Shown: piece after piece, positions 3,546 to 41,101 of the stretch | Layout: the number at the start of each line of letters is the position of its first letter | Numbering within the stretch: position 1 is the stretch's first letter | Virus record (IMG/VR): IMGVR_UViG_3300028031_000006 | Location: 1-41,101 of that record | Length of the DNA: 41,101 bases | Direction: 5' to 3' (one strand) | Origin: a virus | Notes under the pieces: model-generated | What the model saw: the letters and a program-made list of their open reading frames with translations, nothing else | Told to the model about the DNA's origin: nothing | Database searches by the model: none | Translations under genes and position numbers: made by a program

Positions 3546-3815
3546 CTATAAATCTAGGATGTTGAATTCTCTGGGTAGTTCCAGCGCGCTTTCGGTCTCG
3601 CCTTCCCAAACCACGTTTAAAAGCCTTGTCAGATCTTTATGGTTTTTAGTTATTAAATCAAAAACGGCTAAGGCTTCTCTGGTATTCAGTCTAGGCTGTA
3701 AACTGTCGATCAGCGCCCCTATGTCGTTTTCAACTTTGGTTTTTACTTGCCCTAACGTTTTATAATCTAATCCGTTTAAGGTGTAGACGGTTCTCTGTGA
3801 TATTTCAGTACACAT
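3546..3815 (-). CDS. First gene of leftward early unit, 89 aa, unknown
   Basis: No recognised family; helical, with a short acidic C terminus. It is the promoter-proximal gene of the leftward unit: a strong sigma70-like promoter lies at 3861-3888, and the ATG follows GAGG about 9 nt upstream. Promoter-proximal early phage genes often act on the host, but nothing in this sequence indicates a target. Confidence 0.75.
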   Translation of the reverse strand: MCTEISQRTVYTLNGLDYKTLGQVKTKVENDIGALIDSLQPRLNTREALAVFDLITKNHKDLTRLLNVVWEGETESALELPREFNILDL

Positions 3816-3842
3816 TTTGGTTGCCTCGTTTTCGTGTAATAA

Positions 3843-3867
3843 GTTAAATTAACAAAGTTAAGTATAC
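3843..3867. repeat. 25-bp promoter-associated repeat, copy 1 (putative operator)
   Basis: A 25-bp A/T-rich element matching 40204-40228 at 21 of 25 positions in the same orientation. It covers the -10 box and start region of the leftward promoter. The recurrence at two leftward promoters suggests a shared regulator, phage or host. Confidence 0.6.
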
Positions 3868-3888
3868 CGCTTTCTATGAGCGTGTCAA
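3861..3888 (-). promoter_or_regulatory. Leftward early promoter, sigma70-like
   Basis: Read on the minus strand: -35 TTGACA (3883-3888, 6/6), 16-bp spacer, -10 TATACT (3861-3866, 5/6). It drives the 3815-to-77 gene string and probably onwards across the join. The -10 lies inside the 25-bp repeat, so binding there would compete with polymerase. Confidence 0.8.
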
Positions 3889-3923
3889 ACTTTTATTTTT
3901 ACATGGTTTTGTGCGTAAAGGTG

Positions 3924-4481
3924 TTCTGCCTCAAAAATATCGATTCTGCCTCAAAAATAAAAACGGCCTTGTGACAAAATATTTGTTTATAATCAACCAC
4001 TTAGCGCACGTTGTCACCTGTGCTTTTATTTTTGAGGCAGACTTAAGTCCTTGATTTTAAAGGATAAAAGGCCTTTTTGCCTCAAATACTTATTGAATAT
4101 ATAAACTTGATTAAGTATAGAAATATAAAAGGTACTATTACAGGTTTTACACGGTTTTGTGTAACTACACGGCTGCTACCGGCTGGCAGGTCTTTGGTTT
4201 TACTTGGTGTTTTTGAGGCAAAACGGCGTTTTCCTGTTTAAAACCAACAGGTTACGTTGTCACAGCTTAAAAAGGTCTTGTGACAAGGTCTTGTAAGTGG
4301 TTGATATTAAAAGGTTATTTTGTCACTTGTTGATTTTCGCGTAGGTTTTTAAAGAGCTGTTTAAAATCAATGACTTACAATAGTCTAAATTTATTTTGTC
4401 ACAGCTTTTTAGGGTAGAATAGTGAGGCTTTATGCGGGTTTGCGGCGATTCTGCCTCAGCTTTGAAATGGTCTTGTGACAA
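3924..4481. repeat. Control region with two interspersed short repeats (candidate origin or operator array)
   Basis: Motif A (TGCCTCA with flanking A-tract) occurs at 3924-3939, 3944-3959, 4027-4041 (inverted), 4077-4088, 4209-4220 (inverted) and 4449-4458. The first two are exact 16-mers 20 bp apart. Motif B (TTGTCACA or its complement) occurs at 3969-3977, 4011-4017, 4257-4264, 4278-4286, 4319-4325, 4396-4403 and 4473-4481. An A/T-rich stretch lies at 4081-4140. No credible gene fits in 3816-4524. The layout resembles an iteron-type origin or a repressor array between divergent units; the sequence does not decide which. Confidence 0.7.
4093..4121 (+). promoter_or_regulatory. Possible rightward promoter inside the control region
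   Basis: -35 TTGAAT (4093-4098), 17-bp spacer, -10 TATAGA (4116-4121). It lies in the A/T-rich part of the repeat array, where such matches arise easily. It could provide a transcript through the array for origin activation. Confidence 0.3.
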
Positions 4482-4488
4482 ACTGATT

Positions 4489-4518
4489 TTGCTATGTTTG
4501 GTATAAATGCGGTATTAT
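4489..4518 (+). promoter_or_regulatory. Rightward promoter for leaderless small-terminase mRNA
   Basis: -35 TTGCTA (4489-4494), 18-bp spacer, -10 TATTAT (4513-4518). The ATG at 4525 lies 6 nt after the -10, so the expected +1 is the A of the start codon. A motif B copy (4473-4481) adjoins the -35 and could be an operator. Confidence 0.55.
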
Positions 4519-4524
4519 TCGCGA

Positions 4525-5121
4525 ATGAGTGTAAGAACATTAGTAAGTAGCAGCTTTAAGATTGCTCCCCAGCACGCCGGGTGGAGTCTAGACGACATTG
4601 AAATGATGATGTCGCAAGATGAACTTGTGTTTTGTAATGCTTATATAAAGCATAACGGGAATGGAAGTAAAGCCGGTCACGAAGTAAGGATGCTCAATTC
4701 AGAGACCGCACAAAAGTACGCGGATGGAAAGTTTACGGTTAAACGCAACCAGCAATTGTGCAGTGGCAAGACCATGGACATGCTTAAACATTCTCTGGTG
4801 TCTAGCTATTTGTACCTACAAGTACAGAAAATACGTGAGAATGCACGGAGATCCATCGATAGAAACCTTGAGAGTTACACCAAGAAATTTGAGGAGATAC
4901 GGGACGCCGCACTCAAGGATGGGGACTACAGCGCGACTATCAAAGCACAAAAAGAGCTAGGCCTTTTATATGGACATACAGATAACAAAGACCCCACCCG
5001 ATCTATTAATAACGTCACGTTGATCAAGGTTATCGCCGGGGGCGACATGCATGTCCGGCGCAAGCTAGGAAAGGATATGGGGTTGCCGGATGATGTGATC
5101 GAGGGTGAATTGCTTGAATAG
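4525..5121 (+). CDS. terS: Terminase small subunit (putative)
   Basis: 198 aa from this start. MSQDELVFCNAYIKHNGNGS followed by a helical segment resembles the DNA-binding N terminus of small terminases (pattern: F..AYI..NGS.A), and the C-terminal part (KAQKELGLLYGHTD) is typical of the phage terminase small subunit. It would recognise packaging DNA and regulate the large subunit at 8299. An earlier in-frame ATG at 4507 overlaps the -10 region, and a later one at 4603 would trim the N terminus; 4525 is preferred because it fits a leaderless mRNA. It is unusual in being separated from the large subunit by fibre genes. Confidence 0.65.
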   Translation: MSVRTLVSSSFKIAPQHAGWSLDDIEMMMSQDELVFCNAYIKHNGNGSKAGHEVRMLNSETAQKYADGKFTVKRNQQLCSGKTMDMLKHSLVSSYLYLQVQKIRENARRSIDRNLESYTKKFEEIRDAALKDGDYSATIKAQKELGLLYGHTDNKDPTRSINNVTLIKVIAGGDMHVRRKLGKDMGLPDDVIEGELLE

Positions 5122-23400: not shown

Positions 23401-23474
23401 ACGTGGAACCACAGCCCCTTCGTGTCAACATCCATGAGCCTAAGCCCCCCGTAACCATCACTCCGACTCGATAA
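20406..23474 (+). CDS. Large internal virion / DNA ejection protein 3
   Basis: 1022 aa, the largest gene and the last of the rightward unit. It is largely helical, with an N-terminal MLTPEQQKRLDELDRLEAAA coiled segment, a long charged middle, hydrophobic helices near residues 670-690 and 710-730, and a Pro-rich end. T7 gp16-like and related ejection proteins have this size and place. I see no transglycosylase motif (no clear ES plus downstream pattern). Its 3' end overlaps the convergent gene 23458-23754 by 17 bp. Confidence 0.65.
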   Translation: MLTPEQQKRLDELDRLEAAAATSFIPETVSPTPSTTQAGDRNRLLKDQQLVKRAQANGVTAQQQFDNEQNAPLPQKAAQPLVPDSTIFSRFSKRFNESSDQIAKIPTEIEGDSSALMGILKSAIHPETTRALFGQEGVDKQARDFKDLGNTLKKGVLTPLSGLDAVVFSLTGGPLGEAIRKVPPGERQISMTEFEEPLTVNTTPESIEQEASTFEEAVTMLGIPGTGPAVMAIAKGLSKTAGKTEAVQGVLKTLQKDDPRLRKAGAEPFGNEEFDIVLSDKVMKQLNEDAVKALRGAPPSDQRVFLDIADGLEDGTIDPSRISGILNKHDMDANTFVEIFLATGSGAGRTLNRFSATSKALSKAFKADNPELAVKLAKEAKDADFGGKLFRGIQKTDEFRRLAGTSQLVTAIRNATVTPVVAAVGAIDKSFEILLRGSFTKDAWSDALGVIGQAPNAAKQGLPFTGNAQKIFNKLDEVPSSALNVSKKEEFLSNVGIADANIPTGGAADKLGQSRKAFKEGNVLEGTGEALDALGNVTKRGLTVFNRAQEKIMRVGALSLRLAQIKGVKSVDDVDFAKLTQAEIEEAVDFALEVTFAKNPTSQVMKDVLGGLKSIAPLSTAEAPYIRFMFYNAPRWIVNHSPIGAAKVFGPKNLKALANGDTQRTAKILSEAATGSMLISVAAQINRSEASGDRTGEIVREDGSVVPVRSYAPLAPYLLIAKIIEDPSSVQPRDYVELLTSMRTDKDTPSGVLGDVLQAENAEEVEKAVNGLAANYLGMFTVPFRMAKDVVSIFDPEEAIQRDTRNGGILDKAKDNIPFLSQELDPVQSLFEPGPKIQDSPKFLDSIADKVPGNIAPIARQLTGVTINYRPEVEQAVVAAGLNPSRLYPKTGVKEADEFITRVVGELAERNAQLELAGDEYKSQTTKAGQAIYLKAMFAKYKALAKMQMKQEDPQLYLRSQIEANLTELEKQFLDESGFLQNSKLQSPTGLENFIQTGNVEPQPLRVNIHEPKPPVTITPTR

Positions 23475-23754
23475 CTTTATTATACTTTTCGATAAACTCA
23501 GGGTGCTCGATCAAGTAAAGCTGTAACGCCTTTAAAGCTCTCGCCGCCACACTGGTTAAGTGCAGACATAGGTCTTCTTCATTGTCCTGATCCAGATACT
23601 TATGCGAGTGTAAGTGCCCTTTCAGTTTTAAAAGCTCGTGGTTAACGCCTTTATCGTAGAAGCCTGCGCCATTCTTATGCTCGTTATTGCTGAAGGAGTA
23701 AAGTACAGCGTTATTTGCTGATCGCAGTAGCACTTGGTACTCGTCGTTGGTCAC
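23458..23754 (-). CDS. Hypothetical protein, 98 aa
   Basis: Last gene of the leftward replication unit. It is His-, Asn- and Leu-rich, helical, with no recognised family. The start is GTG at 23754, overlapping the previous TGA (GTGA). Its end runs 17 bp into the 3' end of the large ejection protein gene on the other strand; I see no bidirectional terminator between them. Confidence 0.7.
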   Translation of the reverse strand: MTNDEYQVLLRSANNAVLYSFSNNEHKNGAGFYDKGVNHELLKLKGHLHSHKYLDQDNEEDLCLHLTSVAARALKALQLYLIEHPEFIEKYNKVIESE

Positions 23755-24344
23755 CTATAACTCCACTGCCACGCCATAGCTTCTGCAATTCCGGTATACG
23801 TTCGAGAACGCTCTTTCCATCGATCTTTTCCAGACGGTAAATAATGCAGCCGTTGGCGTTCGTTATCGGGTAAGGTTAGCATGTGCGCTTTAACGTCATT
23901 GCTAGGCTCTAAAGGAGACAGGCCTTCTAGCCATAAGCACGTAGCTTTCTGTTCAGGGTGTCCGAACATCCAGGGTTGGACAACTTGCGTTTGACTTTTC
24001 CCTATGAGCCTTTTAGCGTACTTATGCATGATAGGGTTTTCTACCGCCTTTTTAGGAATGGGGGCGTCGAGTAGCAGTTTGAAGAACTCCGCTCCCTCGA
24101 ATAGCTTGAGCCACCTTTTAGCGTCTTTATGTAAATGGCATACGCCGGAGTTACAAAGGTACGTGCAATCAGGGTGGGCCACCATCAGGTCCCATCCGTC
24201 ATTCAAAACTTCACGCACGTCACCCTGGTAATGGTTCCCTTCTGTTTCACTAGGGAGTAAGTCGCAGCTCATTGCATCGTGACCTAAAGCCGAGAAAGCG
24301 TCACGTACTCTGCCTGAGTACTCACAGGCGACTAGGACCTTCAC
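23751..24344 (-). CDS. DNA cytosine methyltransferase-like protein
   Basis: 197 aa. VLVACEYSGRVRDAF (residues 3-17), SCDLLPSE (26-33) and GDVREVLNDGWDLMVAHPDC (41-60) match the short phage proteins commonly labelled DNA methyltransferase, with the AdoMet-site and 'P-P-C' regions. Here the usual PPC reads PDC (58-60), leaving a single candidate catalytic Cys60. The length is well short of full C5 methyltransferases and no target-recognition domain is obvious. It may modify phage DNA or bases, but activity is unproven. GTG start overlaps the helicase stop by 4 bp. Confidence 0.65.
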   Translation of the reverse strand: MKVLVACEYSGRVRDAFSALGHDAMSCDLLPSETEGNHYQGDVREVLNDGWDLMVAHPDCTYLCNSGVCHLHKDAKRWLKLFEGAEFFKLLLDAPIPKKAVENPIMHKYAKRLIGKSQTQVVQPWMFGHPEQKATCLWLEGLSPLEPSNDVKAHMLTLPDNERQRLHYLPSGKDRWKERSRTYTGIAEAMAWQWSYR

Positions 24345-25735
24345 TCTGGAACCTCCAGTTTCACTTTACCGGTTAAATCGCTTTGCATCTTATCCTTCTT
24401 GCGAAGTGCCTCGGCAATGCGTTGTTCTACTGAGTTCGCTACAGCGAGCCGGATATACACAGGCTGTTTAAACAAGCCTGATTGCGCCTGGCGTATCGCA
24501 CCCACGCGCTCGTCCATCTGTTGGTTCAGCTCTAGGCTCCACTCTGCCCCGAACCAAAGAATAGTCCGGCCACCCTTTTGCAGGTTCAACCCATGGCCGG
24601 CAGACGCGGGATGGCAGCATAGTAGTCTGATCTTGCCCTTGTTCCAACGCTTAACGGCTTTAGGCTCGTTGATGTGGACAGCGTGGTTAAAGCGTTTCTT
24701 GATACGCAGCCAGTCTGACTTGAACTGAAACGCGATAATCAGGTTCTCTCCCTGGGTTTCGTTGATCACGTCTTCCAGTGCGTCGAGCTTCAAGTCGTGA
24801 ACGACATGAAACGGGCTGGTGTCGTCCATTGGGTCGGTATACACCGCGCCATTGCAGAACTGCGCTAATTTGTTTTGCAGGTTAGCGACCGATAAGGCTT
24901 CAACCGAAGTATCTTCGTCCAAGGCTAAGTAGAACTCGTCTTCCAGTTCTTTATACTGCGAACGTAACTTGTTTGATAAGTGAACAAGTACCGGAGGCGG
25001 GTTCAGGATCTCCGGCACATCGATATGGTCTTCTACTCGTACCGAGAATGCGACGTCCCTAAGCTTATCATCGATCTCTTCACCTTCGAACACGCTTCGC
25101 AGGTGCCACTTAAAGCCATTATAATCCTGCTCAAAGAACCGCTCTTTATACCACTTCTGAGTGCGTCCAAGGCGCACGCCTTGGTCGATCACGAACAACT
25201 GCGGCCATAACTGTAAATAACCGTTAGGCATAGGTGTACCACTTAGGTAATAAAGTCGGTGTATCTTAGGCAACACGTAGCGCGTGGCTCTGAAAGTGGT
25301 GGCTCCTGGAGTCTTGTACCCTTTGCAATCATCAATGATCACCATGTCATACGGCCAATCTTGCCCGAAACCTTTAACCAACCATGGCAAGTTTTCTTGG
25401 TTGATGATCTGTATTTTGCCTTTACCAAGCTTAGCTTCTCGTTGGTCGGGAGTACCGAACAGCAGTTTCACTTTACGCTGTAGACCATGCAAGTGTGTCC
25501 ACTCCGTGCATTCTTCAGCCCACGTGTGCTCAGCGGCTTTTTTGGTGGATACGACTAGCACTTTCTTGACTTCTTTAGCTTCCAAGAACTCTTGGGCTAC
25601 TGTCAGATTAACCACTGTCTTACCCGAACCCATACCCGCCCAACAACACTGGTTGTCGGTATCATCGGCAATCGGGTTAAGCAGGCGCTCCACCATTGCG
25701 TTCTGGTAGGCGTGGAAGTCGGAGCGTTTAAGCAC
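24341..25735 (-). CDS. SNF2-type superfamily 2 helicase
   Basis: 464 aa. From the chosen GTG the order is HAYQ (8-11), Walker A AGMGSGKT (33-40), motif II IIDDCK (133-138, replacing the usual DEAH), LSGTP (164-168), and in the second lobe CCHPASAGHGLNL and QQMDERVGAIRQAQ. This is a DNA-translocating ATPase typical of phage replication blocks next to VRR-NUC. The frame extends to a TTG at 25789, inside the VRR-NUC gene; GTG 25735, overlapping the VRR-NUC end by 8 bp, is more likely. Confidence 0.85.
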   Translation of the reverse strand: MLKRSDFHAYQNAMVERLLNPIADDTDNQCCWAGMGSGKTVVNLTVAQEFLEAKEVKKVLVVSTKKAAEHTWAEECTEWTHLHGLQRKVKLLFGTPDQREAKLGKGKIQIINQENLPWLVKGFGQDWPYDMVIIDDCKGYKTPGATTFRATRYVLPKIHRLYYLSGTPMPNGYLQLWPQLFVIDQGVRLGRTQKWYKERFFEQDYNGFKWHLRSVFEGEEIDDKLRDVAFSVRVEDHIDVPEILNPPPVLVHLSNKLRSQYKELEDEFYLALDEDTSVEALSVANLQNKLAQFCNGAVYTDPMDDTSPFHVVHDLKLDALEDVINETQGENLIIAFQFKSDWLRIKKRFNHAVHINEPKAVKRWNKGKIRLLCCHPASAGHGLNLQKGGRTILWFGAEWSLELNQQMDERVGAIRQAQSGLFKQPVYIRLAVANSVEQRIAEALRKKDKMQSDLTGKVKLEVPE

Positions 25736-26039
25736 GGCCAAACAAGATTGACTTAGCGTCCAGCAGGTCGTCACACACGTAGGTGTCAACCTTAACCCCC
25801 CTCATTTTTTTACTGAACCGGATTTGGGCGGAACTGGCAGGTTCCCCTAGTTTTTTGAACTCTATAAAGAACACTCTGCGGTTCTTTATAAAAATCCTGT
25901 CGTGCGCACCCCGATGGCCGGTGAATGCGACCTTGGCAGTAAAGAACCCGAGGCGTTTAGCGTACCGAACTGCCGCTTGCTCGATGCTTTTCTCCGTAAC
26001 AACGCGTTCACTGGCTTTCTTTGAGTCAAATGTTTTCAA
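25728..26039 (-). CDS. VRR-NUC nuclease
   Basis: 103 aa. EKSIEQAAVRYAKRLGF gives the N-terminal Glu (E20), GAHDRIF the Asp (D47), FFIEFKK the ExK pair (E60, K62), and a downstream Gln (Q72) completes the PD-(D/E)XK VRR-NUC site. Such stand-alone proteins cleave DNA structures and are routinely paired with SNF2 helicases in phages. The start is TTG at 26039, overlapping the upstream TGA (TTGA). Confidence 0.88.
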   Translation of the reverse strand: MKTFDSKKASERVVTEKSIEQAAVRYAKRLGFFTAKVAFTGHRGAHDRIFIKNRRVFFIEFKKLGEPASSAQIRFSKKMRGVKVDTYVCDDLLDAKSILFGRA

Positions 26040-26230
26040 TGGATTTTACCTCGGTAGGTGTCTTGCAACGCTTGCACTTGTTCAGCTAAAGCGATCACTG
26101 CTTCTTCCAAAGCATCACCGTAGGTGGACGCACCGGTGATGACTCGCTCCATTATATTGAATAGCTTCGGGTTCTTGTGGGCAAGAACGACGATCTGTGC
26201 TTGATTATTTAGTTCTTTGGTTTCGTTCAT
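26036..26230 (-). CDS. Hypothetical protein, 64 aa
   Basis: Small helical protein without a recognised family, between VRR-NUC and a short unknown gene. Its start lies in a 17-bp junction sequence (26225-26241) that recurs at 26413-26429; both junctions combine an AGAGGAAAAC leader with an overlapping ATGA. Confidence 0.7.
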   Translation of the reverse strand: MNETKELNNQAQIVVLAHKNPKLFNIMERVITGASTYGDALEEAVIALAEQVQALQDTYRGKIH

Positions 26231-26241
26231 GTTTTCCTCTT
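26225..26241 (-). repeat. 17-bp gene-junction repeat, copy 1
   Basis: GTTCATGTTTTCCTCTT (plus strand), identical at 26413-26429. Each copy encodes the last codons (KRKT) of one gene, the SD and the ATGA stop/start overlap with the next. Confidence 0.85.
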
Positions 26242-26418
26242 AGGCTGTCGCCATTCGCACATCCGTTCTACGACTTCGTCGCTCGGGCATTCGTCTACCC
26301 ATACGTGAGTTATTTTCGGAGCTCCTTTGTGCTTGTGTACCTGAGCCACTACAGCACGGTCGGAGCAACCGAAGTCTATCCCGATGGTCTGACTTTTACC
26401 TCTACCTCTTAAGTTCAT
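26227..26418 (-). CDS. Short protein with RNase H-like strand motif, 63 aa
   Basis: SQTIGIDFGCSDRAVVAQVH (residues 9-28) looks like the first beta-hairpin of an RNase H-like or resolvase fold, where Asp15 would be a metal ligand. At 63 residues the fold cannot be complete, so this may be a remnant or a small binding protein. It overlaps HNH and the 64-aa gene by 4 bp each. Function unknown. Confidence 0.65.
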   Translation of the reverse strand: MNLRGRGKSQTIGIDFGCSDRAVVAQVHKHKGAPKITHVWVDECPSDEVVERMCEWRQPKRKT

Positions 26419-26429
26419 GTTTTCCTCTT
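26413..26429 (-). repeat. 17-bp gene-junction repeat, copy 2
   Basis: Identical to 26225-26241; here it joins the HNH gene to the 63-aa gene. Confidence 0.85.
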
Positions 26430-26765
26430 GGTTTTTAACCGCTGGTTCTTCAGGTTGCTAACCTCTTGCAGGTGAGCAGGATTACAGCACAACCTATTCT
26501 CACAGGTGTGGTCTATCTGCTTTTTGTTGCTGACGAATCCGTGAACCAAGGAGTACATTAAACGATGCACGTACACGTATTGCCCTTTAACGTTTATCTT
26601 GCCGTAGCCTCCACCTCGTCCGTTACCGCTGGTCGCCCCCATCCACTCCCAACACTTAGTATCTTTGTGGACTTTTATCTTCCCCCGCAGTCTGTTAACT
26701 AAAGCGTCCCGTAGGGTAGAGTTAATAGCCATGTACGTAATTCCTAGGACGTGTTCTCGACTCAT
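26415..26765 (-). CDS. HNH endonuclease
   Basis: 116 aa. VHRLMYSLVHG (66-76, His67), QIDHTCENRLCCNPAHLQ (83-100) and a trailing N in SNLKNQ form an HNH site with a Cys set (C88, C93, C94) like the HNH_3 homing endonucleases. The start at 26765 makes an ATGA overlap with the polymerase stop; an open frame extends 24 codons further upstream within the polymerase gene. It may be a free-standing homing endonuclease inserted after the polymerase gene, or a domesticated nuclease. Confidence 0.88.
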   Translation of the reverse strand: MSREHVLGITYMAINSTLRDALVNRLRGKIKVHKDTKCWEWMGATSGNGRGGGYGKINVKGQYVYVHRLMYSLVHGFVSNKKQIDHTCENRLCCNPAHLQEVSNLKNQRLKTKRKT

Positions 26766-28876
26766 TTCCAAAACCTCCCTAATTCGCTGGCGGATGCGAT
26801 TAAAGGGATACCCTTCATCCACTTCTCTTTGACGCAAAGCAGTTTAGACATTTCTTCTGCACTGCCTTTACCCTTCTTAACGTCGGATACGATCTCGTCG
26901 TACACGGTTAACACGGTCTTCTTGTACACGGTTCCTCGGAGTCTCAGTTGCGCGGCTACCATGATATCACGCGCTACCGCTTGGACTATGTTCTCCACCC
27001 ACTTGCCGCCGTAGCTCTTAAGCACGCCCCATTGGCGGGTCTTGCTGTCCATGCCGAAGTAGCGTACCTCTTTACCGAAGTTACCCGGGCGAATGTGTGG
27101 GTTAACATAGTGCAGCATTCGACCACTCGGTAGTTTGATCCACAGGTAGTTAACGCCTTTGTATTTACCCGCTTTAAACACGACGTACTTGCCTGCTTGA
27201 ATGGCACGCCCTGGGTTCTCGATCGCACGTATAGCAGCTCGATCGCAGACTTCCCAGAGTCCTAAGGGGCCGTGGTCTCCACGCTTGTTGGCAAGATGTG
27301 GATTACTTTGACGGTACTGGTCAACCACGTACATCTGGTACTGTTCTGTGGTGTCCAGCTTTCGCTTTTTAGCTTTCTTGCGCTGCTCGTTATGCCAATC
27401 CAGTGTGCTGTGCAAACGGGCAGGTAGTACGAAACCATCTGGCACTTGGATGTCTATCTTTAGGTTGGTTGACATGGTGTTGAGCGCCATGAAGCCACCA
27501 GCGTACCCACAAGCCAGCGTCACAGCCTTGCCGCCTTGGTACTCGTTGGTGCCTTTCTCGATGTGTTTAACCGGCTTCTGGAATACACCGGATGCTGCGA
27601 TCTTGTAGATGCGAGAACTGTCGCCTTCTTCATCCCCCTTGCGGATCTCCCGTAACACGTCTTTACCACCTGCCAGCCAGTGCAAAACACGTGGCTCAAT
27701 GGACGAATAGTCAGGAGCAATTAACCGGTGCCCTTTTGAAGCGGTTAAAGCTGTTCGTATCAAGCTGCATAGTACGTCAATCGGGTTACCGTAGACCATG
27801 TCAATCAGTTCTACGTCACCCTGCTTAACGAGCTTCAATGGCTCGCCGTAGGTCTGGAACGTAGGCCGTGGCAGGTTAGCTGTGTTAATCCCGCGACTGG
27901 CTGTACGACCTGTACCGGCTGCTTGGTATATCTCCATGCCTCGCAATCGGTGGTCTTTACGATCCGCCCATGCCAACATGTTCAGGTACTTCTTAGGCAT
28001 GGTACTGGCGCAGGCTATCTTGAGTTCCATTACCTGTTTAACCATCGGGAACTTACACTCCTGTGCGGCTTTTAAGAGGGTATCGCCCTGCATGTTGGGT
28101 AGCTTTTGCAGGTTAGCGTGGAACCAACTGAGCAATTGAGTATTGCTGTTCGGGTTGGCCAGCTGCGTTAAGAACCGCATCTTAGTAAGCTGTTGCTCCT
28201 TAACGCCGGTGTACATCTGGTATGCAGTCTTGCACAACTTCACGTCCACCTTCATACCGCGCCAGTTTTGTTGTTGGTTCAGTATCCAGACTTGACGTTC
28301 TGTCTTGCTCAGGGGGCGCAAGTGGTTAGACTTGTGGCGTTCCGCGATTACGTCTTGTACGCAGTAGGCGCCTAACTCTTCCATCAACGGCCAATACTCG
28401 TCGCCCCAGTAGGTTACAGGGTCTTCCAGTTCACCTTTGCGAGGGCCTTTAGTATGCTTCTGCGGGACACACAGTTTACGGATTAACGCGTAACCGGACT
28501 TGTCTTTACTTTGCTCGACTCCTGGAAGCTTCATCTGTGCACTGATCATGCCTAGCGATTGTGGCCAGTTCGAAGCGCAAGCTAAGGCCATGGTGTCATG
28601 CCATTGGTTGAAGTCGATCTTTAGCCCGAGCACGTTTTTTATAATGCAGCACTCGAAGAAGGAGTAGAACGCGTGCAGTTCGTCACCTGATTTCAGTAGC
28701 TTCTTAACGACTTCGCGTATTCCAGGGGTATGTCGGCTTCGCATTACTTCACCGTTGTTCTTAGCCCACCCTAGCCACAGTACCCGAGTAGAGGGATGTC
28801 TTGAGTAAACCCACGCTCCGTGTGTCAGTAAGTCGCACTCGCTGTAGGTCTCGAAGTCTAAGTGATATTTATTCAT
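26762..28876 (-). CDS. Family A DNA polymerase with 3'-5' exonuclease
   Basis: 704 aa replicative polymerase. Exonuclease: LDFET (Exo I, D7/E9), WHDT (Exo II, D94), YCVQD (Exo III, Y171/D175). Polymerase: motif A APDYSSIEPR (387-396), motif B region KAVTLACGYAGG (450-461), motif C TVYDE (657-661, Tyr in place of the usual His). No 5'-nuclease domain is present. It clusters with SSB-, DUF2800- and helicase-type genes, as in many phages that replicate independently of host Pol III. SD GAGGTGG precedes the ATG. Confidence 0.95.
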   Translation of the reverse strand: MNKYHLDFETYSECDLLTHGAWVYSRHPSTRVLWLGWAKNNGEVMRSRHTPGIREVVKKLLKSGDELHAFYSFFECCIIKNVLGLKIDFNQWHDTMALACASNWPQSLGMISAQMKLPGVEQSKDKSGYALIRKLCVPQKHTKGPRKGELEDPVTYWGDEYWPLMEELGAYCVQDVIAERHKSNHLRPLSKTERQVWILNQQQNWRGMKVDVKLCKTAYQMYTGVKEQQLTKMRFLTQLANPNSNTQLLSWFHANLQKLPNMQGDTLLKAAQECKFPMVKQVMELKIACASTMPKKYLNMLAWADRKDHRLRGMEIYQAAGTGRTASRGINTANLPRPTFQTYGEPLKLVKQGDVELIDMVYGNPIDVLCSLIRTALTASKGHRLIAPDYSSIEPRVLHWLAGGKDVLREIRKGDEEGDSSRIYKIAASGVFQKPVKHIEKGTNEYQGGKAVTLACGYAGGFMALNTMSTNLKIDIQVPDGFVLPARLHSTLDWHNEQRKKAKKRKLDTTEQYQMYVVDQYRQSNPHLANKRGDHGPLGLWEVCDRAAIRAIENPGRAIQAGKYVVFKAGKYKGVNYLWIKLPSGRMLHYVNPHIRPGNFGKEVRYFGMDSKTRQWGVLKSYGGKWVENIVQAVARDIMVAAQLRLRGTVYKKTVLTVYDEIVSDVKKGKGSAEEMSKLLCVKEKWMKGIPLIASASELGRFWK

Positions 28877-28889
28877 GGGTTGCCACCTC

Positions 28890-29139
28890 GTTTAAAGTTA
28901 ATTCCCCGTTCTCGCGTCACAGGTGGGGTTGAAGCCTGCCTCTTCGCCCAGGAATAAGGGGCTGACGCTTTTACCGTTATTCGGTTTTAAACTTAAACCC
29001 CCCGTTTCTGCGTCACAGGTGGGGAGAAAGCCTGCTATCAATCCCGAGGAGCACGGGAAGACGCGGGGTTGTTCTTTACCAGCTTTCGGGTTTAAAAATA
29101 ATTCCCCGTCTTCGCACAACGAGTGGGGTTGAATCTCGT
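28890..29139. repeat. Three imperfect tandem repeats (~96-105 bp)
   Basis: Units begin near 28890, 28984 and 29090. Each contains a TTTAAA-type start, a CCCCGT block, and GTGGGG about 20 bp on (at 28923, 29019 and 29123). Units 1 and 2 share CGTCACAGGTGGGG exactly. The spacing is 96 and then 104-105 bp, and both strands stay open across much of it. This region forms the long leader of the DNA polymerase gene. Confidence 0.85.
28898..29119 (-). CDS. Possible Cys-containing repeat protein, 73 aa
   Basis: A TTG-started frame made of the tandem repeats. The recurring peptide unit is PTCDAxTG, then LxLxPxxGK, then AGF, with periods of 35 and 32 residues. There is no good SD before the TTG. The frame continues upstream, without a stop, to the TAA of the ssDNA-binding protein gene, so it could only be translated by a weak start or by read-through. 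It may instead be non-coding repeats that happen to be open. Confidence 0.35.
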   Translation of the reverse strand: MCEDGELFLNPKAGKEQPRVFPCSSGLIAGFLPTCDAETGGLSLKPNNGKSVSPLFLGEEAGFNPTCDARTGN

Positions 29140-29182
29140 AACCTTGGCAGTGGCATTGCCATAGTGCTAGAAAACAAAAACC

Positions 29183-29818
29183 TTAGTTTTCGTCGTCATC
29201 CCAATCTTCGTCATCTTCTTCATCGAAGTCGAAACCATCGGTTGCTTCGTCAAAATCGACAGGTGGTGCGCCGAACGGTTCGTCGTCGCCAGCGTGGACT
29301 ATAGCCAATAAATCCATGCCTAACATAGGATTGGATTCGGCAGTACCGTTACCTTCCCACACCCACATGTTAACTTTAGCATCCACCCGGCAGCCTGCAT
29401 AAAACATGTTTTTAGAGTTAGCTTCATCTTCTTCAACAGGAGCGCCTCGGCTGTCCAATATAAAAGGACGGACTTTGTTCTTAACGTGCAACGTGACACA
29501 CTTCTTATACTCGTCACGGTTGTTCTCCATGCGGTCGCGTTCGACGTCAGTTTTTATCGCAAGATACGTGGCTTTGGGGGGTACCCCGTCTAGCCCTGAT
29601 GCGATCAGTTCCTTACTGTGCTTTAGCATGGCTTTAGCAATCTTTTTGTGTTTACCTTTAACGTCATCCAGCATTAGTATGCAACTGAACTTCTGTATTT
29701 TACCTTTGAAGGTGCCTTGTCGAAAGAAGTTAGGTCGTGACAGTCGTGCCCCTTTAATCATAAAGGTTTGGTTAGTCCGGCTATCGTCTTTCTGTTTTTC
29801 GTTTTTCTTTTTACTCAT
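29183..29818 (-). CDS. DUF2815-type single-stranded DNA-binding protein
   Basis: 211 aa. Basic N terminus, then IKGARLSRPNFF and the OB-like body with KGKIQKFSCILMLDD and later NMFYAGCRVDAKVNMWVWEG, as in the DUF2815 family that accompanies DUF2800 and PolA in phages. The last ~25 residues are almost all Asp/Glu, the acidic tail typical of SSBs that recruits partners. The reading frame remains open for 94 codons past its TAA, into the tandem repeats. Confidence 0.8.
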   Translation of the reverse strand: MSKKKNEKQKDDSRTNQTFMIKGARLSRPNFFRQGTFKGKIQKFSCILMLDDVKGKHKKIAKAMLKHSKELIASGLDGVPPKATYLAIKTDVERDRMENNRDEYKKCVTLHVKNKVRPFILDSRGAPVEEDEANSKNMFYAGCRVDAKVNMWVWEGNGTAESNPMLGMDLLAIVHAGDDEPFGAPPVDFDEATDGFDFDEEDDEDWDDDEN

Positions 29819-29856
29819 TTCAAGTTTCCTCGTTTTTACGTTTTAAGTTTTACAGT

Positions 29857-31062
29857 TTAAGTGTCATTCTCGAATTCGAATCCTTCGAGTGCTTCAGCTT
29901 TAGGGCTGACTGCTTCGCGGGAATCGCTTTCAGGAACAACGACTAGTTTACCATCGATGTACTCGATGAATTTCTTTTTCCACGCGTCAGGTATGCCCTT
30001 CATTTTACGGGCTACTGCGGGGGTTATAACCTTGCTAACGACTACATCGTGGTTACTGATGTTGCGATTGTTCTTAAGGCGACGCAGTATCGCTTCATCA
30101 TCTTCAGTGTACTTCTGAGACTTACGACCTTTGACCAGCTTCAAACCTTTGACCTTTTCACCAGCGTTGAGCGCCGTTTCGGCTTGTTCTTTGCCAAGCT
30201 TAAGAACCTTCTGCACCAAGGAGGTGTTGGCCACCAGTCGCTCAAGACGCTGGTGCGACGCGTCTGACATGAAGTCATCTACGTCTTGAGGCTCTTCACT
30301 TAAGAAGTCAAACCCGTCCAGTGCTTCTTCTTTAACAAACCGATCTAACTCAGCGCAACCTTCCGGTTGTTTGCCGACTTTACACCATTGGCACTGCTTG
30401 GTTCCAGCGTGTAGGGGGGCACCTTTCTTGCTCGCGGCCTTGCCTGCTTTCTTAGCTTTCTTGGCGAACTTCATAAGCTGGCGGATGTTGATCTCGTAGG
30501 AACTTACGTGGTCAAGCCGTGGCTGATGGATGGTGATCTTGATACCACGTATCATTTCGAACATGGACATTAAGTCCCACGCTCCGAGGGCATACAGCAG
30601 ACCTTGCTTGTTCTTATAAGCGTTGACCATAATGCCTTTGCCGTATTTCAGATCGACAATCTCTAGGATACCATCAGCGTTAAGGGATACGAAGTCGGCT
30701 GTACCGAAGCCTCCGCCCACCCACCGTGAGTAGTCGATGCGCTGCTCAACGTGGGTCTCGCCACCTAAAGCATTACAGTAGTCTACGTACTGAGACACGT
30801 AAAACACCATGTCTTTAGTAACCGTAAAAGTCTTCGGTAAACCTTTAGACTGATCATGCTTGGGGAGCGTTAGTTCTTCGTATTTATAGTAGTCTGGTTG
30901 TATGCCCCGCTTTAAACACCGTTCAGCAAGGTAATGGGCGCAGGTGCCTTCGTGCGCGAACTCGGAGTTCTCCTCTGGCAGGTCTTTGGATAATGTGACA
31001 CTGCCTGGGCAAGCGAACCAGCGTTCGGCGCTGCTTGCGCCTAATGATGAGTGCTGTGCCAT
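29857..31062 (-). CDS. DUF2800 Cas4/RecB-like nuclease
   Basis: 401 aa. SSAERWFACPGS (10-21), HEGTCAHYLAE (37-47), GTADFVSL (120-127, D123) and EIVDLKYGKG (134-143, D137/K139) form the PD-(D/E)XK site. A Cys group follows in KQCQWCKVG and GC near residues 220-235, a possible iron-sulfur or zinc site as in Cas4/AddB-type nucleases. It neighbours the SSB-like gene, suggesting recombination-linked replication. The ATG at 31062 follows the upstream TAG after two bases. Confidence 0.88.
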   Translation of the reverse strand: MAQHSSLGASSAERWFACPGSVTLSKDLPEENSEFAHEGTCAHYLAERCLKRGIQPDYYKYEELTLPKHDQSKGLPKTFTVTKDMVFYVSQYVDYCNALGGETHVEQRIDYSRWVGGGFGTADFVSLNADGILEIVDLKYGKGIMVNAYKNKQGLLYALGAWDLMSMFEMIRGIKITIHQPRLDHVSSYEINIRQLMKFAKKAKKAGKAASKKGAPLHAGTKQCQWCKVGKQPEGCAELDRFVKEEALDGFDFLSEEPQDVDDFMSDASHQRLERLVANTSLVQKVLKLGKEQAETALNAGEKVKGLKLVKGRKSQKYTEDDEAILRRLKNNRNISNHDVVVSKVITPAVARKMKGIPDAWKKKFIEYIDGKLVVVPESDSREAVSPKAEALEGFEFENDT

Positions 31063-31064
31063 GA

Positions 31065-31574
31065 CTACTTAGAACCCTTATTCGCTTTTTGCATTTCTTT
31101 CCAAGGCTTCTTGAAGTGTGCCCAGAACTCGTCAAACTGCTCCGGCTTTACGTCGGCTAATAGCTTGGCACCCACCATGTTCAAGGCTTCGCGCATGTCG
31201 TCCTTGGTAATCCAACCGTCAAGTAGTTGAACGATGCGACGCTGAATCCGCTTGTGACGCTTCGCGTTTGAAGCTGCGTCGGTGTCGGGTTTGGCTTTTT
31301 GCTTTTTGGGCTTTTCTTCGGTGTCTTTGTCTAAGGCTTTCTCCGCCTCAGCTTTTGCTTCCTCTACCGTGTCACCGAACCCTACTCCTATAGCTTCCGT
31401 TTTCGGTTTCGGTTTTGTTTTTTTAGTTTTAGCAGCCTTAAGACTAGCTCCATGCACTTCAACTACTGTGTTGTCTTCGTCAGGTGCGTTAGCTAACTGC
31501 TTCGCCGCTTCAGCGAATAGTGTAGCCAGGTTGTTGAGCAGTGCCAGTAAAGCTTTGCTTGTGTAATCCATCAA
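31065..31574 (-). CDS. Hypothetical protein with charged linker, 169 aa
   Basis: N-terminal helix (LLALLNNLATLFAEAAKQLA), then a Lys/Pro/Glu-rich low-complexity linker (about 50-105), then a helical C-terminal domain (IQRRIVQLLDGWITKDDMRE, FWAHFKKPWKEM). No family recognised. It could be an accessory factor of the nuclease downstream. SD AAGAGGAAAC precedes the ATG. Confidence 0.75.
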   Translation of the reverse strand: MMDYTSKALLALLNNLATLFAEAAKQLANAPDEDNTVVEVHGASLKAAKTKKTKPKPKTEAIGVGFGDTVEEAKAEAEKALDKDTEEKPKKQKAKPDTDAASNAKRHKRIQRRIVQLLDGWITKDDMREALNMVGAKLLADVKPEQFDEFWAHFKKPWKEMQKANKGSK

Positions 31575-31587
31575 TGTTTCCTCTTTA

Positions 31588-31612
31588 GGTTTAAGTAATT
31601 TGTAATTGCGTG
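31588..31612 (-). repeat. 25-bp leader repeat, copy 1
   Basis: Exact 25-bp direct repeat with 31816-31840 (plus strand begins GGTTTAAGTAATTTG, ends TTGCGTG). It lies in the leader of the 31065-31574 gene. Confidence 0.9.
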
Positions 31613-31634
31613 TCGTGCTGTTGTCGTAGCCTAT

Positions 31635-31790
31635 TTAGTCTAGAGGTGCTTCGTCTGTCTCGCCTTGCACCCACTCAAGGGCTACTTTAACCCCCTGCTC
31701 GTAAGTCATTCCGGGGTACACGGATTGTCCCGCGTCTTCCGCCTCTAGGCACTTGTTCAAAACATCATCTATTTCTGCTTGTTCTCTCAT
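31635..31790 (-). CDS. Small conserved-type phage protein, 51 aa
   Basis: ATG at 31790, stop TAA at 31635-31637. The C-terminal half, MTYEQGVKVALEWVQGE, has the form seen in many short phage proteins ('Y.G.TYE.GV..AL.WV.G') of unknown function. It is the promoter-proximal gene of the replication unit, with SD GGAGTGG and the strong promoter at 31847-31874 just upstream. Confidence 0.75.
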   Translation of the reverse strand: MREQAEIDDVLNKCLEAEDAGQSVYPGMTYEQGVKVALEWVQGETDEAPLD

Positions 31791-31815
31791 TTTCCACTCC
31801 GTTAAAGTTGTTTTT

Positions 31816-31840
31816 GGTTTAAGTAATTTGTAATTGCGTG
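31816..31840 (-). repeat. 25-bp leader repeat, copy 2
   Basis: Exact match to 31588-31612. It falls just downstream of the leftward -10 box, so it is the first transcribed sequence of the replication mRNA and also recurs one gene later. Confidence 0.9.
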
Positions 31841-31846
31841 GCGAGC

Positions 31847-31874
31847 ATCATATCAGAAAAAACTTGCATGTCAA
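31847..31874 (-). promoter_or_regulatory. Leftward replication promoter
   Basis: Minus strand: -35 TTGACA (31869-31874), 16-bp spacer, extended -10 TGATATGAT with TATGAT at 31847-31852. A near-consensus sigma70 promoter for the 31790-to-23458 unit. It overlaps the rightward promoter of the 31902 gene, so the two must compete or be jointly regulated. Confidence 0.85.
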
Positions 31875-31895
31875 ATAATCTTACATTAGTATGTT
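31864..31895 (+). promoter_or_regulatory. Weak rightward promoter for leaderless mRNA
   Basis: -10 TATGTT (31890-31895), 6 nt before the ATG at 31902. TTGCAT (31864-31869) is the only -35-like hexamer, but its 20-bp spacing is too long for a good promoter. It overlaps the -35 region of the leftward promoter. Confidence 0.35.
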
Positions 31896-31901
31896 CAACC
31901 T

Positions 31902-32129
31902 ATGACGATACAAGACCAGATTGAACAGATGGAAACTAAGGCTCAAGCCTTGGAACTCTATAAACTGATAACGCAAAACCCTGATGCACGAATAGAAGAC
32001 TTTACCAACTGGGCGGGGTTTCAACGACAAACGTACTACGATTGGGACAACCCGTTACCTGATAAAACGCGCTTCCAACTGTACGGTCGACTGACCAAGC
32101 TGCTCAAGGAAACGACTCATGCCAAATGA
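31902..32129 (+). CDS. Possible HTH regulator, 75 aa
   Basis: Residues about 30-46 (ARIEDFTNWAGFQRQTYYDW) have the spacing of a helix-turn-helix. It is small, divergent from a strong promoter, and its own start is leaderless, a layout like Cro-type or early regulators. The DNA-binding claim is inference. Its end overlaps the primase gene by 11 bp. Confidence 0.6.
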   Translation: MTIQDQIEQMETKAQALELYKLITQNPDARIEDFTNWAGFQRQTYYDWDNPLPDKTRFQLYGRLTKLLKETTHAK

Positions 32130-34410
32130 GTTTTCGCAGTACGCGCATAAGCTGCTAAAGCTAGGTTACGAGCCCGTTCCCATACCTTTAGGCGGTAAAG
32201 GTCCAAAGGGTCAAGCTTCTATAGGCTGGCAAAAGAACAAGATAACGCCTGCTCGAATCGACACATGGGCTGAAGAGTACCCGACTGCCGGAGTCGGCAT
32301 TCGATCACACCGAACTCCCGGTATTGACCTGGATGTTTATGACAAAAGCGTTTCGGAGTTACTGTATGACTGGTGCCACTATAAACTAAACGGAGCTACC
32401 ATCGGCAGGATAGGGCAAGCTCCTAAGATACTGGTGCCTTGTCGAGCTACTGCGTCTGCTTCTAAGCGATACTCTAAATCCTATACTGATTCCGAAGGAC
32501 GTGTTAACCGTATCGAGATACTACGCAAAGGCCAGCAATTCGTGACTTATCACCAGCACCCCGACACTCAAAAGCCGTACCGCTACGACACTGAAAATAC
32601 GTTCGTAAATACCCCTAGAAAAGAACTACCTGTCCTCACAGAAGAACTGATCGACGAGTTGTTCGGCTACTTTGATTCCATTGTACCGGACGATTGGATG
32701 AAGACAGGCAAACAGTCTACTAAACCGACTAACGGGCACGACGATTCGTACAGTCACCTGGTTCCAAGGCTGGATATTACAATGGTACAAGCACGTAAGG
32801 TTCTTAAGTCCTTACCGTACTACGACGTTGACGATCATAAACGGTGGTTGAACGTGGGCATGGCGGTACACCACCAGTTTGGTGGTAAGCCTTTAGCCAT
32901 GAAGCTATGGGCTATGTGGTCTAAGCAATCAGACAAGTACGACCCTAAAGCCTTACAACAACGCTGGCGTTCGTTCGGTAACGGTGATGGTCCACCCGTT
33001 ACCTTCGCCACGGTTTTGAAGTACGCCAAAGAAGCGCAAGTACAAGTTGCTAAAGCGAAAGTCGAAGGCCCAAAGCCGCCGCCTCGTGAGTCACGCAACC
33101 TGACGGGTTTCCTGAAACGTTACGCGTTTATGCCAGAAGGAAACAGCGTGGTTGACTTAAAGCGACCCGTAGATCAGGCTGTGATAAAGATCGAATCCTT
33201 CCGTAACTTAACTGCTAACTGCCGTATGGATGTAAACAGCCCTACTGCGGCCGACCCAGATCGCACTAAACTGGAGCCTATCCATAAGTTCTGGCTGACC
33301 GACAAAGACCGTATGACGATTGAAGGTACTACCTACGATCCTGGAACGGATAAACGTATCACGCGCAAGAACCGTCGCTTGTTCCTGAACCTTGCTCACT
33401 TCCCGCAGCACGCGAAGATCCTTAAAAAGATGCAGGACAAAGGCGAGACTCGCTCTCTTAAGGTGTTTGCTGACCATATGCAATACCTGTTCCCGATTAA
33501 GTCAGAGCGAGAGTGGTTCGAACAATGGCTCGCGTGGAACGTACAACGACCGGCTCAACGCTGTAAAGTAACGCCACTGCACGTATCCAAGGCGCACCGT
33601 ACCGGGCGTGGGTGGGTGGTGGAGTTACTCGAACACTTGCTCGGCAACTGGAACGTGAGTAAGGCTAAGATGGCCCACTTGTGCGGCGGTAGCGGGATGT
33701 CTCAGTTTGACGATTACCTGCATCAATCCCTCGTGTGCGCCATAGAAGAAGTGAAGGAGTCGGATAAACGCTACGCTGTGAACGACCAGATCAGAGATAT
33801 CTTAACCGAGAACCGGTTGAACGTTAACCTGAAGTATGGCGGTAAAGGGACTATCGATGTGCATACCAACATGTTCCTTATGACGAATCACAGCGATGGC
33901 TTAATCATCCCGATGGAAGACGAACGTATCTACGTACTGTCCGGCGCATCCCACCGGCAAAGTACAAAGTACTACGATAAGCTGTACAATTGGGCGCATA
34001 ATAAGAAGAACATCGCTGCCTTATGGGGTTATCTGCAAAGCGTGGACCTGTCAAACTTCAACTGGCAAGTAGCACCTGACACTCCAGCACGTGCCAAGAT
34101 GATTGACTACAACCTGACCACTACCGAAGCTGTGTTTCTGCAATGGATGGAAGAGAATAAGTATAAGGCCTTGTCCCGCCAGGCGATTGACCTGCAACTG
34201 AACCAGTTAGCTGACCGTGATGGACACTGCGAACTGATTGAATCGAAGCAGGTGAACAAGCTCTTACAACAGCACTCGGAGAAGTTGAAACAAGTGCGTT
34301 TGAAGGATGGAAGTCGTATAAGAGCCTGGGGTTTTGGGGGTTGTCGAGGCTTCGGGACCAAACAAATCCGCAAACAATTGCGTAAATCTTCACCAGATAC
34401 GCTGGACTAA
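32119..34410 (+). CDS. Primase-helicase (prim-pol, PriCT-like, DUF5906/SF3-like)
   Basis: 763 aa. The N-terminal prim-pol like region has GWQ, VGIRS and GIDLD (68-72), and RIEILRKGQQFVTYHQHP (131-148) with a conserved-type His. A PriCT-like helical region follows (about 217-306: KSLPYYDVDDHKRWLNVGMA). The C-terminal SF3/DUF5906-like ATPase has HVSKAHRTGRGWVVELLEHL where Walker A should be; the lysine of GKS/T is replaced (GRGW), and LVCAIEEV (538-545) fits Walker B. AAGGA SD supports the ATG. It would prime and unwind for the family A polymerase. Confidence 0.85.
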   Translation: MPNEFSQYAHKLLKLGYEPVPIPLGGKGPKGQASIGWQKNKITPARIDTWAEEYPTAGVGIRSHRTPGIDLDVYDKSVSELLYDWCHYKLNGATIGRIGQAPKILVPCRATASASKRYSKSYTDSEGRVNRIEILRKGQQFVTYHQHPDTQKPYRYDTENTFVNTPRKELPVLTEELIDELFGYFDSIVPDDWMKTGKQSTKPTNGHDDSYSHLVPRLDITMVQARKVLKSLPYYDVDDHKRWLNVGMAVHHQFGGKPLAMKLWAMWSKQSDKYDPKALQQRWRSFGNGDGPPVTFATVLKYAKEAQVQVAKAKVEGPKPPPRESRNLTGFLKRYAFMPEGNSVVDLKRPVDQAVIKIESFRNLTANCRMDVNSPTAADPDRTKLEPIHKFWLTDKDRMTIEGTTYDPGTDKRITRKNRRLFLNLAHFPQHAKILKKMQDKGETRSLKVFADHMQYLFPIKSEREWFEQWLAWNVQRPAQRCKVTPLHVSKAHRTGRGWVVELLEHLLGNWNVSKAKMAHLCGGSGMSQFDDYLHQSLVCAIEEVKESDKRYAVNDQIRDILTENRLNVNLKYGGKGTIDVHTNMFLMTNHSDGLIIPMEDERIYVLSGASHRQSTKYYDKLYNWAHNKKNIAALWGYLQSVDLSNFNWQVAPDTPARAKMIDYNLTTTEAVFLQWMEENKYKALSRQAIDLQLNQLADRDGHCELIESKQVNKLLQQHSEKLKQVRLKDGSRIRAWGFGGCRGFGTKQIRKQLRKSSPDTLD

Positions 34411-36364: not shown

Positions 36365-36673
36365 TCATTCAGCCTCTATCTGTTTGAGCTTGTTCAGAGT
36401 TCTTACAAACCCTCTGGTAATACCTTTGGCATACAGATCATACATATCTTCCATAGCCTCCTCATGCATCATCTCGATCTCAGTGATGCCCTTGGATAGC
36501 TTAGATGGTGCGCGAGTGTTCCATCTGGTTATCAATTCCTGTTTGTTTCGACCGTCAATAGTCAAAAAACAAGCGCCGCACCTGATAACAAAAAACTCAC
36601 CAGATTTGTAAATCCCTTCATCATTATCTACGTCACCATATTTGCAAAGGGGGCATGGTTTTAAAGCAATCAT
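36365..36673 (-). CDS. Lar-like zinc-ribbon protein (restriction alleviation family)
   Basis: 102 aa. LKPCPLC (4-10), RCGAC (31-35) and ITRWNTRAP (48-56) form the compact zinc ribbon with the closing W-N-x-R of Lar-type proteins. In the prophage prototype this relieves type I restriction of incoming DNA; whether this homologue does so is unknown. A helical C terminus extends beyond the ribbon. The ATG overlaps the previous stop by 4 bp. Confidence 0.8.
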   Translation of the reverse strand: MIALKPCPLCKYGDVDNDEGIYKSGEFFVIRCGACFLTIDGRNKQELITRWNTRAPSKLSKGITEIEMMHEEAMEDMYDLYAKGITRGFVRTLNKLKQIEAE

Positions 36674-41025: not shown

Positions 41026-41101
41026 ATCAGTATTACTCCGGTTGAACTTCAGTTGTTATCACGACAATCAACTTCTGCAATCAGTGGAGTTGGTCGATAA
41101 G
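40957..41101. repeat. Terminal overlap, right copy
   Basis: Repeats bases 1-145, differing at 41083, 41085 and 41086. The three mismatches are clustered within 4 bp near the extreme end, more like read-end error or population variation than a diverged functional repeat. Confidence 0.9.

Follow-up and report, generated by a model that had tools for sequence, protein, structure and literature searches.

The divergent gap and the genome around it

The stretch of DNA analysed here (the window) is an IMG/VR virus record of 41,101 bases. Bases 1-145 and 40957-41101 form a 145-bp terminal direct repeat with three mismatches near one end, so the record probably amounts to a complete genome, circular or permuted, of about 40,956 bp. 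The joined ends fall inside the early operon, so that the leftward early operon spans position 3815 through the junction to 36148; the early region also encodes a Lar-like restriction alleviation protein (36365-36673). Late genes run rightward from about 4.5 kb, and their products include a Terminase_6-kind large terminase (Pfam domains Terminase_6N and Terminase_6C; best TerL relative 49% identical among the best 80 of 276 matches), a head-tail adaptor/portal-like protein and a major head protein.

The replication genes lie at 23.5-34.4 kb (23458-34410). One strand carries genes for a DNA methyltransferase, an SNF2-like helicase, a phage endonuclease (phrog_93), a family-A polymerase, an Enc34-like ssDNA-binding protein and a DUF2800 exonuclease. 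Facing this block on the opposite strand are a small gene and a primase-helicase with Prim-Pol, PriCT_2 and DUF5906 domains (32119-34410, + strand; assigned by Pfam, by PHROG as DNA primase and by family comparison), which is the proposed initiator. The Casjensviridae records examined hold a similar block with matching gene order (helicase, nuclease, polymerase, ssDNA-binding protein, exonuclease, then the facing small gene and primase). In the window this Casjensviridae-type module (23458-34410) stands beside a Terminase_6-kind large terminase and podovirus-like structural relatives, and its presence next to such unlike structural genes points to module exchange. Our Pfam scan covered 38 of the 63 ORFs of the window.

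The divergent intergenic region at 3816-4506 (691 bp, 35% GC) separates the ORFs at 3546-3815 (- strand) and 4507-5121 (+ strand), with leftward early genes on one side and the terS-like and late genes on the other. The gene at 4525-5121 (+ strand, within ORF 4507-5121) probably encodes the small terminase, as judged from its position and a short motif; the ORF had no Pfam match. Among the three gaps of at least 200 bp in the window, 3816-4506 is the single strongly repeat-rich one, and the top 8-mer repeat score of the record belongs to the 600-bp window at 3900.

An earlier note on this DNA described six TGCCTCA sites (T) and seven TTGTCAC sites (S) within about 560 bp of this gap and read them as a candidate origin or regulatory hub. 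Counting both motifs on both strands over the whole window, we confirmed these numbers and the occurrence of both orientations. Six of the eight exact T matches in the window lie within 3927-4481, at 3927-3933 (+), 3947-3953 (+), 4033-4039 (-), 4078-4084 (+), 4214-4220 (-) and 4452-4458 (+), and the 16-mers at 3924 and 3944, which contain the first two, are identical as described. The same interval holds seven of the nine exact S matches, at 3971-3977 (-), 4011-4017 (+), 4257-4263 (+), 4280-4286 (-), 4320-4326 (+), 4396-4402 (+) and 4475-4481 (-), five of which carry the extension TTGTCACA. All 13 array sites are exactly T or exactly S, giving two cleanly separate cores, and inward-facing S/T pairs are 22-24 bp apart. 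In 5000 dinucleotide shuffles of 3816-4506, T occurred 0.035 times on average (maximum 1) and S 0.084 times (maximum 2), and the marked excess claimed for S is thus borne out by the seven copies found.

Promoters had been expected at both edges of the array. The leftward one stands, as an early promoter candidate (TTGACA-16-TATACT, 3861-3888, - strand) with 11 of 12 consensus matches, but the rightward candidate (4489-4518) has only 9 of 12, no better than shuffles give. The array might be a promoter control hub alone, at which one or two phage regulators together with IHF switch the leftward early and rightward late operons, with no origin function. It lies exactly between the divergent operons, the 11/12 leftward promoter is just outside it, and by eye the seventh S site (4475) is just upstream of a possible rightward -10 region. 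However, promoter control needs neither a mirror symmetry round the least stable DNA of the genome nor a kinship of the S core to initiator cores, both of which are described below, and no regulator family was found among the 38 of 63 ORFs scanned with Pfam, although small phage regulators often have no Pfam match. A pure hub is therefore, in our opinion, quite improbable.

Several other assignments were set aside. The motif TGTGACAA resembles an F-plasmid iteron half-site, but a Rep_3 iteron origin seems less likely, as no gene for a Rep_3-type initiator (RepE/pi/TrfA) was seen among the 38 of 63 ORFs scanned with Pfam. A DnaA-box origin was dismissed because the array contains no DnaA box (TTWTNCACA), and a partition or integration site because no ParA/ParB or integrase was found in the ORFs scanned. 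The product of the gene at 31902 had been suggested as a binder of the array; it has no detectable relationship to the small proteins encoded upstream of the primase in relatives, which led us to discard it as a conserved binder, and its gene has no exact T or S site nearby. The GC skew that had been recommended as a check did not indicate a clear origin: at fourfold sites the detrended minimum is at 6742 and the maximum at 34777, the range was reached by 5 of 5000 shuffles, and a two-segment fit preferred another layout.

Mirror arms, an A/T-rich centre and IHF-like sites

The array is built in part from two inverted copies of one segment. Positions 3971-4089 align with the reverse complement of 4209-4326 at 70% identity (E 2.9e-8), the left arm (+) reading S-IHF-S-T-IHF-T and the right arm (-) T-IHF-S-S-IHF-S. 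Since the arms are inverted copies, the S and T sites are not all independent events. In the arm alignment, 54 of 63 site columns are identical versus 27 of 54 columns outside the sites (two mixed columns dropped), a comparison that is partly circular because the sites were defined by likeness, although the outer sites do define the same cores. S and T occur at equivalent places in the mirror arms, as with T4033 opposite S4257. The two site types had been taken to suggest two proteins, an initiator plus a repressor; this is not the best reading, as S and T hold equivalent places and both cores resemble those of one initiator family (S closely, T weakly). The second protein is likely IHF, acting at a third motif which the earlier note missed, together with the mirror symmetry.

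Between the arms lies a candidate DNA-unwinding element of low stability (4086-4140, 84% A/T). The A/T-rich stretch noticed earlier lies at the centre of the array, and no other 60 bp of the window are as unstable as 4081-4140; the least stable 50, 60, 80 and 100 bp of the whole record start at 4091, 4081, 4085 and 4050, respectively. The single strand of the region folds better than every one of 100 shuffles (z -5.8), which is expected from the mirror arms.

The third motif is what we take to be the IHF consensus, WATCAANNNNTTR. Exact matches number four in the 41-kb window and all four are in the array: AATCAACCACTTA at 3991-4003 (+), AATCAAGGACTTA at 4044-4056 (-), TATCAACCACTTA at 4294-4306 (-) and AATCAATGACTTA at 4365-4377 (+). 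A further predicted site, AACCAACAGGTTA at 4242-4254 (+), agrees at 8 of 9 constrained positions and occupies a mirror position. With at least 8 of 9 positions matched, 33 sites occur in the record, nine of them in 3801-4520 versus 0.58 expected from the record-wide average, and the motif is in excess over 5000 shuffles. Candidate IHF sites lie between outward-facing S/T sites with gaps of 13/7 bp (twice), 21/4 and 21/2, and the centre distances of the four resulting site-IHF-site units are 40, 45, 43 and 40 bp. The fifth candidate, at 4365, is off this pattern, with gaps of 38 and 18 bp.

Such an arrangement recalls the start of DNA packaging. At lambda cosB, as described in the available part of one account, the order is R3-IHF-R2, and the bend brings R3 and R2 face to face (PMC4856287). 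The four units in the window, 40-45 bp apart and beside the probable terS gene, could similarly hold small terminase dimers on site pairs joined by IHF bends, and a packaging role would agree with the exact IHF sites that Chi, Seifer, Danisaur and XAP3 have close to the record end. Yet the large terminase of the window belongs to Terminase_6, from which the lambda large terminase differs; the assembly is circular through the array region and has its ends elsewhere; the four copies surrounding an A/T-rich centre are more than a cosB has; and a non-systematic look through the window identified no cosN. We consider a packaging start of the cosB kind quite improbable.

Primases related to that of the window and their repeat arrays

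Searches at the DNA level gave no close match: blastn of the region in phages returned nothing; a paired T-S pattern retrieved 32 viral stretches, none with an array; an S-IHF-S pattern had 0 matches; and loci L001-L122, besides the window's own pieces, held no T+S cluster (best, four sites in 700 bp). Relatives were for this reason sought through proteins. Here tblastn of ORFs 6122 and 4507 in phages had no match, and a search of viral contigs with the primase as single protein yielded none. Related primases were present in 304 phage records, of which 15 named ones were sampled. This primase type occurs in Casjensviridae, in BPP-1 and in enterobacterial prophages.

In 13 of the 15 named relatives, short repeats were more abundant 3' of the primase than in any of 300 shuffles. 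The annotation-defined 3' regions of Smarc5 and Danisaur were not above all 300 shuffles, and that of R22L was only marginally above. For eight of the 15 (Nazgul, Chi, R22L, SS2019XI, BPP1-like, Smarc5, Danisaur and UF_RH7), repeats within the fetched stretch were densest somewhere other than the 3' region. When Suzuki was scanned for repeats, blind to the motifs of the window, the leading 7-mers were TGTCACA and CTGTCAC, located just past the primase. TGTCACA ranks first among the repeated 7-mers in the arrays of both Suzuki and Bhz60, and the window array has five copies of it. The family cores are CTGTCACA (Suzuki, Bhz60, AhaSv, Clav33), CGTCACC (689R2), GGTTACAA (Chi, Seifer), GGTAACA (XAP3, Smarc5), GGTCCGAA (Nazgul), a CCTAAG-type core (UF_RH7) and ACGAGGCAA (BPP-1-like). 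In Chi, Suzuki and Nazgul (3 of 3), the array region includes the least stable 60 bp found in the fetched 50 kb.

In the BPP-1-like record (PV330005, L134:11000-11110), the primase gene is followed by a small gene, and in the gap past the latter inverted TTGCCTCG pairs flank an A/T-rich centre.

Compared with the family cores, six of the seven S sites are at most one change away, as are 1.0% of random 12-mers, and the other is two away. T sites, set against six main cores, differ by two changes in four of six cases and by three in the other two (random 12-mers within two, 9.2%); the two three-change sites come within one change of a core when compared with a wider set that includes the BPP-1-like one. 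These mismatch counts tie S well to the primase family and T weakly, and by sequence comparison the S core of the window is a family core with one change. The weak relation of T to the main family cores, together with the clean separation of the two cores, might indicate a combined site, where the array serves an origin as well as packaging or promoter control, with the primase reading S and a second protein reading T. This seems to us rather unlikely, because T and S swap at mirror positions, and because the TTGCCTCG array near the BPP-1-like primase means that a T-like core exists within the initiator family. The combined site also overlaps with the origin explanation that we prefer, since S would still mark an origin.

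The best full-length match to the window primase was that of 689R2 (30.8% identity over 743 aligned columns). Searches with the C-terminal halves of these two primases gave five named-genome loci and 23 viral contigs, 28 loci that reduce to 23 distinct ones, as five repeat another. An array lies directly 3' of the primase in 21 of the 23 distinct loci, with CTGNNACC-like cores and once ACTGTGTC; the cores seen in the 21 arrays are CTGCCACC, CTGTTACC, CTGACACC, CCGTCACC, CTGTCACC or ACTGTGTC. In L157 the array follows an early primase stop. Of the two exceptions, L163 lacks an array 3' of its primase, and the repeats found there in L168 are of another kind.

Cores were assigned from the arrays by the analyst for 22 sequences, 689R2 included, and compared with a 25-column wing of the primase C-terminus. 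Where the helicase parts are at least 97% identical, wing identity is 0.94 for pairs with the same core (n=25) versus 0.61 for pairs with different cores (n=74). The values are 0.88 (n=5) versus 0.62 (n=7) for helicase parts at 0.85-0.97, and 0.54 (n=17) versus 0.48 (n=82) at 0.60-0.85; below 0.60 there were 21 different-core pairs and zero same-core pairs. None of 2000 permutations reached the observed value. This covariation of wing and core is good indirect evidence that the C-terminus of the primase reads the array. Among the enterobacterial prophages (L141-L167), primases that are nearly identical otherwise have C-terminal wings that differ in step with the iteron cores, as though the wing and the origin had been exchanged as a unit.

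The C-terminal residues at about 666-741 of the window primase (model residues 46-121) appear winged-helix-like, with moderate confidence. The AlphaFold models are weak (mean pLDDT 58.7 and 70.3), and Foldseek found nothing at E <= 0.001. A second structural look (VIA) listed mostly winged-helix domains (best Z 7.9, with 91 residues superposed at rmsd 3.0), but this does not prove the fold, and the matches listed did not include the P4 origin-binding domain. A profile search of solved structures gave only matches at E 0.3-0.9, to response-regulator DNA-binding domains.

Exact IHF sites are also present in relatives. The 3' regions of seven of 14 (R22L left out) contain 11 such sites versus 0.43 expected, with a maximum of four in 300 shuffles; Chi is closely related to Seifer, as is AhaSv to Clav33, and neither pair counts as independent here. 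In Chi, Seifer, Danisaur and XAP3, most of the exact IHF sites lie close to the end of the record (the Seifer record has its cos annotation there), so IHF may serve packaging in those phages. Those of Chi, Seifer and Danisaur (L124:60,156; L138:6846,6942; L137:6766,6868), at about 57-72 and 155-171 bp from the record end, look like a shared packaging feature. No exact IHF site was seen in the inspected stretch of the 21 arrays of the 689R2-like family, the nearby matches being inside the primase gene.

In Erythrobacter phage R22L (PQ394074), a divergent gap (L169:7536-8140) carries five CCCCTCTGTGACGAC-type repeats and, at 7817, the least stable DNA of the fetched part. This gap is possibly a second displaced origin-like site. 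A clear AATCGGTTCC-like array, with top 7-mers in eight copies, lies at the end of the R22L record.

A proposed origin and its position among known systems

The sites, their symmetry, the low stability of the centre and the family-wide link between primase type, 3' array and wing are directly seen. The region is probably a replication origin opened by the primase-helicase (32119-34410) and folded by IHF. The origin half of the earlier proposal is well supported by comparison with a primase family that has related-core repeat arrays round an A/T-rich centre, the hub half becoming a rival. The recommended comparison with relatives yielded origin-like arrays 3' of related primases, but no close relative with the same array.

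We infer the following course of binding, IHF action, opening and replication at the array. The C-terminal winged-helix domain of the primase-helicase would bind the S sites, and probably the T sites. IHF at the five interleaved sites would bend the DNA so that sites about 40-45 bp apart, flanking each bend, face each other. Two mirror-image assemblies might then strain the A/T-rich centre (4081-4140) until it opens; the helicase ring would load on the opened centre, the Prim-Pol domain would prime, and the phage's own family-A polymerase module would extend.

Against the origin model, the arrays of relatives adjoin or lie near the 3' end of the primase gene, but the window array does not: it is about 10.5 kb away across the joined ends (primase end 34410, array start 3927), and no second repeat-rich window was found near the 3' end of the window primase gene. 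Two cores in one origin were not noted among the relatives examined, and the T sites are two to three mismatches from the main family cores as aligned here, which also speaks against the model. Further points against it are the absence of a clear origin in the GC skew, of a DnaA box in the array and of a close relative with the same array among those searched, and the position of IHF sites near record ends in Chi, Seifer, Danisaur and XAP3. The distance from the primase, the mixture of two cores and the interleaved IHF sites set the window array apart from its known relatives.

Published systems are compared here from the parts of the papers available to us. The Pri-Rep origins of Gram-negative PICIs and of SaPIs use a primase/initiator and have two short-iteron sets flanking an A/T-rich region (PMC6092414). 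The window has a primase-helicase initiator candidate too (Prim-Pol, PriCT_2 and DUF5906 domains, alignment to iteron-linked primases, a modelled winged helix), and two site sets flank its A/T-rich region. However, the Pri-Rep origin lies immediately 3' of the gene (PMC6092414), about 10.5 kb closer than in the window, where a uniform core is replaced by six T and seven S sites and IHF sites are interleaved. On account of this position and these mixed cores, we do not place the array in the Pri-Rep origin family. The Casjensviridae arrays (Chi, Nazgul, Suzuki, AhaSv, Seifer and XAP3) share with the window the replication gene module and cores in both orientations, and in Chi, Suzuki and Nazgul they surround the least stable DNA; the Suzuki group has the core CTGTCACA. 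In contrast to the window array, they are close to the primase and to the record end, and interleaving of IHF and other sites was not noted there. By title, a literature search on Casjensviridae and replication origins found nothing but work on anaerobic digestion, and one on phage Chi nothing relevant.

For pRN1 and the phages BIP-1 and BPP-1, a stem-loop 3' of the Prim-Pol replication protein has been proposed as the origin; in the available text, the authors did not accept iterons for BIP-1, and the pRN1 stem-loop was functional even when displaced (PMC4234260). BIP-1 and BPP-1 resemble the window in having a Prim-Pol replication protein with PriCT_2 and an inverted array or large stem-loop, which is 3' of the gene there (PMC4234260). 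The TTGCCTCG sites of the BPP-1-like record resemble T and may refine the published stem-loop proposal, but that phage has two site pairs only and no exact IHF site. P4 alpha and ori-crr likewise combine a primase-helicase, a winged-helix origin-binding domain and repeats (PMC4234260), but the P4 primase is of the Toprim type. With lambda cosB the window shares the site-IHF-site unit beside a (here probable) terS gene, and differs in its large terminase, its four units and its A/T-rich centre. At pSC101 IHF is required and at R6K it helps, in both cases aiding initiator-driven opening as would be expected here, but according to the available part of the source these origins have one IHF site each and Rep-type initiators (PMC4980987).

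Putting these elements together, we tentatively suggest an IHF-scaffolded origin, in which a Pri-Rep-type primase-helicase works at a distance of 10 kb from its gene, at four IHF-bent, two-core site pairs, the two mirror assemblies opening the centre, and in which, throughout the family, the C-terminal wing encodes the core that is read. We regard this full scheme as possible rather than probable. If true, it would provide a testable origin and initiator for many phages (Casjensviridae, BPP-1-like phages and enterobacterial prophages) whose replication start is unannotated in the records examined. It would also mean that such an origin can leave its initiator gene and can incorporate a host bending protein at regular intervals. 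Near-identical prophages, in which wing and core vary together, would then be a natural data set on how the domain picks its DNA.
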